Shown here: one piece after another, positions 609-3,750 of the stretch
Position numbering within the stretch: the stretch's first letter is position 1
Layout of the letters: every line of letters starts with the position of its first letter
Assembly: GCA_913052435.1 (NCBI GenBank)
Contig: CAJXDV010000027.1
Span: 1 to 11,229, forward strand
DNA: 11,229 nucleotides
Direction of reading: 5' to 3'
Source of the DNA: an uncultured Pelagibacteraceae bacterium
GTDB taxonomy: Bacteria > Pseudomonadota > Alphaproteobacteria > Pelagibacterales > Pelagibacteraceae
Notes under the pieces: model-generated
Seen by the model: the letters and a program-made list of their open reading frames with translations, nothing else
Database searches by the model: none
Told to the model about the DNA's origin: nothing
Position numbers and translations under genes: made by a program

Positions 609-1661
609 TTAATTATTTAAGTTAAGAGCTGCCCCAACAGCTGGTATTTTTTTAGGTGAGCCAAGATCTGTTATAAGATTATCGTATCTACCACCATTGA
701 TAATATTAATATTTCTTGATTTAAATTTAATATCTATTTTAAAAACCATGCCAGTATAGTATTCAAGCTGTCTTCCAAAAGATGCTGAAAATTTAATATT
801 TAATTTAGAATATTTATTTTTGGTAATTGGAAAATAATTATTTTCAATTCTTAGACTAATTTTATTTTTTTTAAAAAATAAATTTAATTTATTTGCTGCT
901 TGATTTATTGGGCAATTTATTTTCAGAAATTCTTTTATTATTTTTGAAACATTTCTTCCTTTTTTAGTTCTTCTTGGATCTTTAATTTTATTATTGAATC
1001 TTGCTAATATTTCATTAACTGATCTTTCGGCAATTAATCGAGATTGATTTTCTTTAAGCATTTTTTGATATTTCTTTTTATCAACCTCAACGATTGTCGG
1101 ATCAACATCCGAGTTGGTCTCTAATCTTTTCAGTAAATCATTAAAATAGTTTTCACGCCAAAAATGCCTTTGCAGTCTTAATTTCCATCTTTTGGGAATA
1201 TCAAGTTTACTTAATAACAAATTAAAGATTTCAACATTTCCTAGAGTTAAACTTCCTGAAGAATATTTAAATTTAGATAATGATTTTAAAGCAGTCTCAA
1301 TTATTTGTTTGTCATCTTTTTTTTCATCTTTAGATCCAATCACTTCAAATCCGATCTGAGTATGAATAATGGGATCATTTTTATTTTGAGCCTTTCTAAA
1401 TGCTTGGCCATGATAAACAAATTTTGCCGGACCTTTGATTTTTTTATTTAAGTATCTAATACATGATGCGATTGTTAAGTCAGGTCTTAAGCAAAGTTCA
1501 TTACCATTTTGATCATTAAACGAAAATATAAATCTTCTAAAAGACTCACCAGATCTCTCTACGATATGATTGGTTTCAATTACTGAGTCTAATTCAATAT
1601 ACCTAAATCCTTTAGACTTTACTGATTTAAGGATGTTTTCAGATAAGTTTTTTAATTTCAT
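609..1661 (-). CDS. hisZ: ATP phosphoribosyltransferase regulatory subunit HisZ
   Basis: This 350-residue protein is a class II HisRS-like paralogue without aminoacylation function. In the known HisG/HisZ hetero-octamer it activates short-form HisG and takes part in histidine feedback. HisRS-like landmarks are visible: LRPDLTIASCIRY near residues 57-69 (the motif around the substrate site), a motif-2-like YHGQAFRKAQ near 83-92, the region around GRQLEYYTGMVF near 300, and the C-terminal GGRYDNLI. The anticodon-binding domain of true HisRS is absent, which fits HisZ. The gene overlaps the 3' end of hisS by 23 nt and is directly followed by hisG, so the three are almost certainly co-transcribed. 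No clear Shine-Dalgarno sequence precedes the ATG, so reinitiation from hisS translation is plausible. A degenerate HisRS is the alternative, but position and size favour HisZ. Confidence 0.93.
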   Translation of the reverse strand: MKLKNLSENILKSVKSKGFRYIELDSVIETNHIVERSGESFRRFIFSFNDQNGNELCLRPDLTIASCIRYLNKKIKGPAKFVYHGQAFRKAQNKNDPIIHTQIGFEVIGSKDEKKDDKQIIETALKSLSKFKYSSGSLTLGNVEIFNLLLSKLDIPKRWKLRLQRHFWRENYFNDLLKRLETNSDVDPTIVEVDKKKYQKMLKENQSRLIAERSVNEILARFNNKIKDPRRTKKGRNVSKIIKEFLKINCPINQAANKLNLFFKKNKISLRIENNYFPITKNKYSKLNIKFSASFGRQLEYYTGMVFKIDIKFKSRNINIINGGRYDNLITDLGSPKKIPAVGAALNLNN

Positions 1662-3027
1662 TAATTAAATTATCTTTTGTTATTTGTAATTGATCATTTT
1701 CCTTAGATGATTTTAATTTTTTTATTGTTAACTTATTATTTTCAAATTCTTCTTGGCCACAAATAATAGCTAAACTACAACCTTTTTTATCGGCGTACGT
1801 TAGTTGTTTTTTTAAATTTTTGCTTGGATCTAAATAAATTTCTGAATTAATATTATTTTCTCTCAGTTCATTTACAATTTTATAATATTCGGAAATATAT
1901 TTTTCATCTAAAATGCAAACCAAAACACTATCGGTTGTCTCAACTTTAATTTGATCTAATTGATTTAAGGCAAACACAAGTCTATCAACACCAATGGACA
2001 TTCCTGTCCCTTTATAGTCAGCACCTTTAAATCTCTTGATTAAAGAATTATATCTGCCGCCGCTGGCTACTGAACCTATTTCAATCTCTTTTCCTTGTGC
2101 ATTTTTGCCTTTAAAATTTAGATTTGTCTCAACACAAAATCCTGAGTAGTAGGCAAGTCCTCGCACAATAGTGAAATTTGTTTTCACCTGGTTTACAAAT
2201 TTACCTTTTGAAAGAATTTCAAACAATTCTTCAATCTCTTTTATTCCTTCTAAAGATATTGGATTTGTTAGCTTAGATTTTAACTCTTTTAGGTCTTTTA
2301 TTTTAAGAAATTCAATTATTTGAGATGCTTGATCATCTGATAAATTTGCACCTTTTGTAATAGCTCCGCTGCTATCTCTTCTTTCTTTCTTAAGTAAATC
2401 TTCAACTCCATTTAAACCTATTCTCTCGAGTTTATCTATAGCTCTAATAACTTTAAACTCCTGCTCTTCCGAAATTTTTAATTCAGATATTAAACCTTGT
2501 ACTATTTTTCTATTTGAAACATTGACTGAAAATTGATCTTTTTTTAATCCACAATTAAAGAAGGTGTCTGCTATAATATTGCAAATTTCTGCATCTGCTT
2601 GAGCCTCATTAACATTACCTATAATGTCTGCATCAAATTGCATAAAAGATCTGAACCTGGAATTATCAGGTTTCTCTCTTCTAAAGACATCACCGTAAGT
2701 ATATCTTTTATAAGGAAATGCCAAATCTCTAAAATTCTGAGCTACAAATCTCGCAAGAGGTGCGCTCATATCATATCTCAAAGTTAATGATTCTTTATCA
2801 TCTTCAAATGTAAATACATCAGACATAGGATTGCTCTCATCATCTGCAAGAAATGATCCAATGTTTTTAGTTATTTCCATTGGAGATGTTTCCAACGGAA
2901 TAAATCCATACTTTAAAAAATTAGCTTCAATTATTTTTATAAGCTTTTTCTTTAAAGCTAATTCTTGGCCCCATCTGTCTTTAAATCCTTTAGGAAGACT
3001 GGGGATTAATTTTTTTTTATCAGTCAT
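1639..3027 (-). CDS. hisS: Histidyl-tRNA synthetase, divergent alphaproteobacterial type
   Basis: This cytoplasmic class II synthetase charges tRNA-His with histidine. I take the ATG at 3027 as the start, giving 462 residues. An in-frame ATG at 3072 lies inside the tRNA-His gene and would add 15 tRNA-encoded residues. From 3027 the N-terminus carries PSLPKGFKDRWG (9-20), as in the family. Motif 2 is at about 107-136 (FRREKPDNSRFRSFMQFDAD), the histidine-binding segment is VRGLAYYSGFCVE (288-300), motif 3 is around GTGMSIGVDRL (340-350), and an anticodon-binding domain follows from about 365. The YYSGFCVE segment differs from the usual RGLDYYNRTVFE and resembles the divergent HisRS of alphaproteobacteria that recognise tRNA-His lacking G-1. 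The start codon lies 3 nt after the CCA end of tRNA-His, so the only Shine-Dalgarno candidate, GGAG, is inside the tRNA. The gene overlaps hisZ downstream. Confidence 0.93.
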   Translation of the reverse strand: MTDKKKLIPSLPKGFKDRWGQELALKKKLIKIIEANFLKYGFIPLETSPMEITKNIGSFLADDESNPMSDVFTFEDDKESLTLRYDMSAPLARFVAQNFRDLAFPYKRYTYGDVFRREKPDNSRFRSFMQFDADIIGNVNEAQADAEICNIIADTFFNCGLKKDQFSVNVSNRKIVQGLISELKISEEQEFKVIRAIDKLERIGLNGVEDLLKKERRDSSGAITKGANLSDDQASQIIEFLKIKDLKELKSKLTNPISLEGIKEIEELFEILSKGKFVNQVKTNFTIVRGLAYYSGFCVETNLNFKGKNAQGKEIEIGSVASGGRYNSLIKRFKGADYKGTGMSIGVDRLVFALNQLDQIKVETTDSVLVCILDEKYISEYYKIVNELRENNINSEIYLDPSKNLKKQLTYADKKGCSLAIICGQEEFENNKLTIKKLKSSKENDQLQITKDNLINEIKKLI

Positions 3028-3030
3028 ATT

Positions 3031-3105
3031 TGGTACTCCGGGGCAGAATCGCACTGCCATAACCCGCTCCACAGGCGGGGGTAATAACTGTTATACGACC
3101 GGAGC
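3031..3105 (-). tRNA. tRNA-His (anticodon GUG), no encoded G-1, CCA encoded
   Basis: The reverse strand folds as a tRNA. The acceptor stem is GCTCCGG (3105-3099) with CCGGAGT (3041-3035), giving a G1-U72 pair. The anticodon stem is CCCGC/GCGGG with loop CTGTGGA, so the anticodon is GTG (3072-3070). The T stem is GGCAG/CTGCC. A73 and an encoded CCA (3033-3031) complete the 3' end. The base before G1 is A, so the extra 5' G of most bacterial tRNA-His is not encoded. U72, A73 and no G-1 are the known alphaproteobacterial pattern, including Pelagibacter. Two features are odd: the T-loop reads TGCGATT instead of TTCGATT (G at position 55), and the D-loop lacks a GG pair. The hisS ATG follows the CCA end after 3 nt. 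Confidence 0.93.
3036..3039 (-). promoter_or_regulatory. Shine-Dalgarno of hisS embedded in the tRNA-His acceptor stem
   Basis: On the reverse strand GGAG (3039-3036) is followed by eight bases (TACCAAAT) and then the hisS ATG at 3027, an optimal spacing. The same four bases are positions 68-71 of tRNA-His, where they pair with the 5' acceptor strand. No other purine-rich site is available because only three bases separate the tRNA from the start codon. Tight tRNA folding would hide the site, and 3' processing would remove it. Confidence 0.6.
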
Positions 3106-3117
3106 TCCTGTAGTTAT

Positions 3118-3146
3118 TTTATACTAAATGTGGATAAAATTAAATT
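3118..3146 (-). promoter_or_regulatory. Weak candidate promoter for tRNA-His/hisS
   Basis: On the reverse strand a TATAAA (3123-3118) lies 12 bases before the tRNA-His 5' end, where a -10 element would suit a start just before the tRNA. The -35 position is poor (AT-only sequence around 3139-3146). In such AT-rich DNA a TATAAA match is weak evidence. Transcription may instead come entirely from upstream of the leader ORF. Confidence 0.25.
3129..3137 (-). promoter_or_regulatory. Perfect consensus DnaA-box sequence
   Basis: The reverse strand reads TTATCCACA, an exact match to the classical DnaA box. It is a single copy, located between the His-rich leader ORF and tRNA-His, directly upstream of the TATAAA at 3123-3118. 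No cluster of boxes surrounds it, so it does not look like an origin. It could be a DnaA regulatory site or chance. Confidence 0.3.
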
Positions 3147-3344: not shown

Positions 3345-3557
3345 TTAAGAAATTTTCTTTAAATTTACTGCGCTTGGACCTTTGTCACCATCCTGGATTT
3401 CAAATTCCACAGCATCATTTTCATTCAAGAAACGAAGTCCTGCATCTCGAACTGCGCTTGCATGAACAAAACAATCTTTTTCTCCGTCTTCTCTTTCAAT
3501 AAACCCGTAGCCCTTCTTGCCGTTGAACCACTTCACTTTACCTTTTAATGTACTCAT
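3345..3557 (-). CDS. Cold-shock domain protein (CspA family)
   Basis: This 70-residue protein is a single cold-shock (OB-fold) domain that binds single-stranded RNA and DNA and acts as an RNA chaperone. It is full length for the family. It has the N-terminal [16 protein letters not shown] (RNP1, residues 6-21) and DCFVHASAV (RNP2, about 28-36), followed by [22 protein letters not shown]. The start at 3557 gives the usual [12 protein letters not shown]-terminus. A purine-rich AAAGAG sits about 14 nt upstream, too far to be an ideal Shine-Dalgarno site. The gene has its own 118-nt upstream gap after tRNA-Phe and a long 3' hairpin, so it is likely a separate transcription unit. Which csp paralogue it is cannot be told from sequence alone. 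Confidence 0.93.
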
Positions 3558-3675: not shown

Positions 3676-3750
3676 TGGTGGCCTCGGCGGGAATTGAACC
3701 AGCGACGCGCAGATTTTCAGTCTACCGCTCTACCACTGAGCTACGAGGCC
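3676..3750 (-). tRNA. tRNA-Phe (anticodon GAA), CCA encoded
   Basis: The reverse strand forms a canonical cloverleaf. The acceptor is GGCCTCG/CGAGGCC, the D stem GCTC/GAGC has loop AGTGGTA, and the anticodon stem GTAGA/TCTGC has loop CTGAAAA, so the anticodon is GAA. The T-loop TTCAATT is regular. A73 and an encoded CCA (3678-3676) complete the 3' end. The 5' end lies five bases after the infA stop codon, so the tRNA is probably released from the 3' end of the infA mRNA. Confidence 0.96.

Follow-up and report, generated by a model that had tools for sequence, protein, structure and literature searches.

In the 11,229-nt stretch of DNA analysed here (the window), the histidyl-tRNA synthetase gene hisS begins directly behind the encoded CCA of a tRNA-His gene on the same strand, and this tight junction recurs in most loci of the family. 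We lean moderately towards the explanation that the tRNA is excised from a joint precursor and that the remaining near-leaderless hisS message would be translated independently of a Shine-Dalgarno (SD) sequence, and the same judgement jointly covers the view that tRNA-led layouts are a general SAR11 solution that fits genome streamlining.

Layout of the tRNA-His and hisS genes

The window comes from a 1.06-Mb genome of the SAR11 group that is 81 percent complete (G000), and its features are collected in Table 1. Read along the minus strand, the junction is GGAG-TA-CCA-AAT-ATG, where the ATG (3027–3025) is the hisS start codon and the distance from GGAG to this codon is 8 nt. Every coordinate given for the tRNA, the AAT, the ATG and the GGAG in a first-pass annotation holds on re-reading and in ARAGORN.

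Table 1. Features at and around the tRNA-His/hisS junction of the window.
Feature	Positions	Strand	Basis and remarks
tRNA-His (GTG anticodon), CCA encoded	3031..3105	-	ARAGORN; Rfam tRNA 49.9 bits; G1:U72, C2:G71, A73
Spacer AAT, CCA to hisS ATG	3028..3030	-	Sequence; 3-7 nt in 135/143 family loci
hisS, histidyl-tRNA synthetase, 462 aa	1639..3027	-	PF13393 99.6 bits and HGTP_anticodon; start kept in alignments
GGAG, 3' acceptor strand of tRNA-His, SD-like probably by chance	3036..3039	-	Conservation count, folding, permutation
TATAAA, possible -10 element 18 nt before tRNA-His	3118..3123	-	Weak; shuffles score as well
A18 of tRNA-His elbow (usually G18)	3089	-	tRNA class table
G55 of tRNA-His elbow (usually U55)	3052	-	tRNA class table
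Downstream ORF with HisRS-like domain (hisZ-like, a putative name), overlaps hisS end	609..1661	-	ORF and domain search
Cold-shock domain gene upstream of tRNA-His	3345..3557	-	Domain search
tRNA-Phe, member of conserved neighbourhood	3676..3750	-	ARAGORN; accompanies tRNA-His in many relatives

The tight junction is kept across the family

Loci for comparison came from a same-genus hisS search that gave a match in 349 of 399 genomes at E 0.001 (some only weak; the best 30 were retrieved), from the 80 best-ranked named loci, from an order-wide search with a match in 109 of 117 genomes (again the best 30), and from 40 more order-wide loci picked by hand from the match list, so that the sample is not random. 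After exclusion of copies of the window region (L001–L003, L114) and of an incomplete contig (L149), 178 loci were compared (L004–L148, L150–L182), which became 155 once identical junctions were removed, 143 from the own family and 12 from a sister family.

We found that the CCA of tRNA-His lies 3–7 nt ahead of the hisS ATG in 135 of the 143 unique family loci (3 nt in 7, 4 nt in 108, 5 nt in 14, 6 nt in 3 and 7 nt in 3), with tight junctions in all six family genera sampled. In these loci the start codon thus follows right behind the 3' end of a tRNA, as expected of a tRNA-punctuated mRNA, and as judged from sequence the arrangement exceeds chance. The gap of about 3 nt described in the first-pass annotation is representative of a conserved short spacing, and there is, as that annotation implied, no space for an SD outside the tRNA. 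The other eight family loci comprise four with gaps of 28–35 nt and four without a parsed tRNA bearing an encoded ACCA. Tight junctions were absent from the sister family, where tRNA-His adjoins hisS in 0 of 12 loci and hisS has an ordinary leader with an SD 4-mer in 6 of 12; four of these loci (L154, L178, L179, L181) have a tRNA-His some 1.4 kb upstream of hisS, and it carries the usual G18 and U55.

Two further features of individual loci were seen by eye. The 28–29 nt gaps of L050, L142 and L166 contain an inverted repeat (CTTTTC-AGGAT-GAAAAG in L050 and L142, AGACG/CGTCT in L166). In L059, L060 and L098, a tRNA-His-like sequence ahead of hisS has no CCA directly after A73, and its ACCG or ATGCCA end suggests, by implication, CCA addition.

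The acceptor-strand GGAG and SD usage

SD 4-mers (AAGG, AGGA, GGAG, GAGG) were scored at -18 to -5 from the hisS ATG. Among the 135 tight junctions, 93 have none, as would suit tRNA-punctuated messages that need no SD, at least on sequence; 35 have AAGG, five have GAGG and two have GGAG (the window and L081).

For the window it had been proposed that the GGAG is the hisS ribosome-binding site, which the tRNA fold would mask and maturation remove, so that a precursor could give either tRNA or an SD-led HisRS mRNA. The motif is well spaced, L081 shares it, the anti-SD is intact, and in the predicted precursor fold the GGAG is fully paired (mean pairing probability 1.0, with 0.07 for the AUG), a second folding giving the same acceptor helix over it. 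An SD conserved inside the acceptor stem, as this switch would need, is however not what the relatives have, given that GGAG is kept in 2 of 135 junctions and that most carry no SD 4-mer at all. The GGAG spacing is lost even in the nearest relatives (L005–L007, L034–L038, some of which are the same contigs), where the motif is gone and the ATG is still at 3 nt; their acceptor stem, GCTGCCG/CGGCAGT against GCTCCGG/CCGGAGT in the window, differs by compensated changes, and acceptor stems vary in this manner while pairing stays. By permuting stem pairs among 28 distinct linked tRNA-His sequences, we obtained expectations of 4.6 tRNAs with any SD 4-mer and 1.1 with GGAG, versus 7 and 2 observed. 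With counts that fit the permutation and SD motifs near background (below), the conservation counts and the permutation control led us to reject an SD in the acceptor stem, and we hold the either/or switch to be very improbable. The GGAG is probably a chance match, though it may help initiation in this one lineage.

SD motifs were also counted in stretches of two SAR11 genomes, each ORF of at least 150 aa being taken to start at its first ATG. An SD 4-mer precedes 10 of 70 genes in G298 and 10 of 82 in G000, where nine other scoring windows average about 6 and about 5; run on E. coli, the script finds one at 24 of 39 genes (27 of 37 with annotated starts, against 2 of 37 in the control). SD motifs are thus only slightly above background in the SAR11 stretches examined, and the slight excess means that some SAR11 genes may use an SD. 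Loss of the 16S anti-SD was considered and rejected: GGATCACCTCCTTT was found in 0 of 10 genomes, yet the 16S end reads GGATTACCTCCTTT in the four loci that display it, so the anti-SD is intact there.

Transcription of hisS and proposed release of the tRNA

The best -10 hexamer starts 16–19 nt ahead of tRNA-His in 98 of 135 loci; its positions seem to cluster, and its scores are no better than those of AT-rich shuffles. A promoter inside tRNA-His that drives a separate transcript starting at the hisS ATG would give a leaderless hisS mRNA without any cut. We give this very little credence and rejected it, since a scan of the five positions that fit such a start, narrow and for sigma-70 only, returned a TATAAT match of at least 4/6 in 0 of 135 loci, the best match being 2/6 in 100 and 3/6 in 35. 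Because none of these five positions offers a -10 match of that quality for a start at the ATG, hisS is probably transcribed through tRNA-His. We also considered that hisS starts within the tRNA, giving the protein an N-terminal extension and nesting the genes as in selB/selC. The frame of the window is open upstream and offers a GTG and an ATG within the tRNA, but 100 of 135 loci have an in-frame stop within the tRNA and three have an upstream in-frame ATG, which makes a nested start hardly credible, and it too was rejected.

According to the excision model that we favour, tRNA-His and hisS would form one tRNA–mRNA unit transcribed from a putative promoter ahead of the tRNA. RNase P would trim the 5' end of the tRNA, and an endonuclease, most likely of the RNase E/G type, would cut the A/U-rich spacer of 3–7 nt behind the CCA, freeing the tRNA and leaving hisS with a leader of 0–7 nt. 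The message would be translated SD-free as a leaderless or near-leaderless mRNA, so that one precursor would yield both products, and the GGAG would have arisen by accident in the acceptor stem of this lineage. Both products would depend on endonucleolytic cleavage within the spacer, because exonucleases maturing the tRNA 3' end from a long mRNA would destroy the message. The junction layout bears out the earlier suggestion that hisS mRNA, once processed, would be effectively leaderless. What we observed in favour of excision is this layout, its conservation, the lack of a conserved SD and the presence of RNase E/G, which was found in 7 of 7 genomes. For RNase Z, 0 of 7 genomes pass the family cut-off and six have weak matches; its absence is not firm, since 5 of 14 control genomes fall below this cut-off as well. 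Passages of a study on another bacterium describe mapped cuts a few nucleotides behind the encoded CCA (PMC3848588).

Cleavage would be unnecessary if ribosomes started SD-free on the unprocessed precursor, at the unstructured A-rich region behind the folded tRNA. In the predicted fold the AUG and the spacer are unpaired beside the tRNA, and no SD is required for such a start. Set against this, a folded tRNA 3–7 nt before the AUG would, given established structure, sit where upstream mRNA passes along the ribosome, and the message would in any case be cut when the tRNA matured from that molecule. We grant this alternative an appreciable but minority likelihood.

Other tRNA-led genes in SAR11

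The layout is shared with other genes. In the stretches of G298, a co-oriented coding sequence begins at most 13 nt after 5 of 31 ARAGORN tRNAs, to which tRNA-His, missed there by ARAGORN, adds a further case (4 nt), and in those of G000 the same holds for 4 of 12 tRNAs. The genes behind close tRNAs include those for NAD kinase, an AMP-binding enzyme, an enzyme of the CCA-adding/poly(A) polymerase family, trigger factor and a pterin dehydratase; one tRNA-led protein of 412 aa had no match in a Pfam search. Reading the best-scoring 30 of 51 and 30 of 39 matching genomes for cca and nadK, respectively, we found a gap of 3–5 nt between tRNA-Gln and cca in 30 of the 30 best loci, with an SD 4-mer in 0 of 30 (L216–L245), and a gap of 3–6 nt between tRNA-Leu(UAA) and nadK in 26 of the 30 best loci (L246–L275), where two rows have no ATG in the searched frame (L252, GTG; L270, a frame break). 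GAGG, part of the unchanging acceptor strand of tRNA-Leu, is present at each of the 26 linked nadK junctions. In the genome of the window itself (L283), tRNA-Gln-ATT-ATG precedes cca. Since tRNA-Gln/cca and tRNA-Leu/nadK share the junction, the layout is not peculiar to pairs of a synthetase and its cognate tRNA, and the special coupling of synthetase output to its substrate tRNA that had been proposed for the window finds no support here.

Several observations count against excision, namely a promoter that scores no better than shuffles, the slight SD excess, the intact anti-SD, the GAGG at nadK and the 4 of 143 family loci with gaps of 28–35 nt. The short spacer may also merely reflect short SAR11 intergenic gaps: the median intergenic length of Ca. 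P. ubique is given as 3 nt in passages of a published account (PMC2704228), and where short gaps are the rule, streamlining alone may explain short spacers.

Identity elements and the elbow of tRNA-His

All 31 distinct tRNA-His sequences have G1:U72 and C2:G71, and A73 is present in the 31 parsed tRNA-His, for which the parser required ACCA; base -1 is A, T or C, never G, in 12 upstream stretches. Within these sequences, tRNA-His thus has the A73 and lacks the templated G-1, like the SAR11/RRCH-type pair of tRNA-His and HisRS described in passages of an earlier paper, which mention neither the junction nor an elbow switch (PMC3937112).

In SAR11 tRNA-His, tRNA-Phe and tRNA-Val, the tertiary elbow pair has repeatedly changed from G18:U55 to A18:G55, both positions switching together. 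With position 18 assigned by eye where the D-loop has two purine–G pairs, the 31 distinct tRNA-His sequences divide into 14 with A18 and G55, 17 with G18 and U55, and none mixed. A HisRS tree of 113 loci shows 13 changes at each of positions 18 and 55, with agreement in 10 of 10 independent pairs; for tRNA-Phe (105 loci; rows lacking a terminal CCA were dropped) there are 11 changes, and again 10 of 10 independent pairs agree. tRNA-Val(GAC) has A18:G55 in both genomes examined (G298, G000). The count of elbow changes could be inflated if whole tRNA genes were transferred, though A18:G55 bodies differ widely. A literature search on the name of the A18:G55 pair returned no paper using it. Work on selected suppressor tRNAs may reportedly have met pairs of this type.

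ARAGORN missed a class of tRNA-His with the T-loop AGCGTAA (A54, G55, U58) in L021, L028, L030, L032 and L033. In the complete genome G298, the tRNA of this class scores 50.6 bits with the Rfam model and is the only tRNA-His seen, beside one partial tRNA-like match of 33 bits. Within the genus (127 hisS loci), tRNA-His and tRNA-Phe are unusually variable, with mean identities over 1500 random pairs of 74 and 83 percent and 26 and 24 distinct sequences, respectively. Recruitment of tRNA-His from another tRNA is not supported, as best matches to the other tRNAs of two genomes reach 64–79 percent and 16 of 17 representatives are closer to another tRNA-His class, L081 tying at 72 percent.

Comparison with known systems and implications

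The thrU-tyrU-glyT-thrT-tufB genes of E. coli are co-transcribed and likewise put tRNA genes directly ahead of a translation gene, all on one strand, whereas the thrT-tufB gap there is 114 nt. The tRNA punctuation model of mitochondria is similar in that a tRNA stands directly ahead of the start codon, the leader is very short or absent and there is no SD; mitochondria differ from the present case of a free-living bacterium with an intact anti-SD and only some tRNA-led genes, for which we infer excision. Passages of a published account describe mitochondrial mRNAs as leaderless (PMC9881170). For tRNA-Sec nested in selB, passages of Mukai (2021) make the case for tRNA processing and protein expression as alternatives, and they also note a tRNA-Sec ending 2 nt before the selA start (PMC8124441). 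As in the model set out there, a tRNA and a protein of the same pathway would share a transcript, and processing would give a leaderless message. Unlike in selB/selC, tRNA-His stands outside the ORF and the layout recurs at non-cognate genes, and for these reasons we do not file the junction under Mukai's model. Among the titles and abstract beginnings of open-licence papers listed in literature searches, none describes tRNA-led mRNAs in SAR11.

Only tentatively do we suggest that SAR11 makes the messages for hisS, the CCA-adding enzyme and NAD kinase by tRNA excision, and that the supply of HisRS keeps step, molecule by molecule, with the maturation of its cognate tRNA, which we regard as possible rather than probable. 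If true, bacteria that rank among the most abundant in the ocean would make near-leaderless mRNAs for essential genes through tRNA excision, in parallel to mitochondria but in a free-living bacterium, and tRNA maturation would be directly linked to synthetase supply. With the same start codon behind many differing acceptor stems, these junctions would offer a natural test bed for SD-free initiation.
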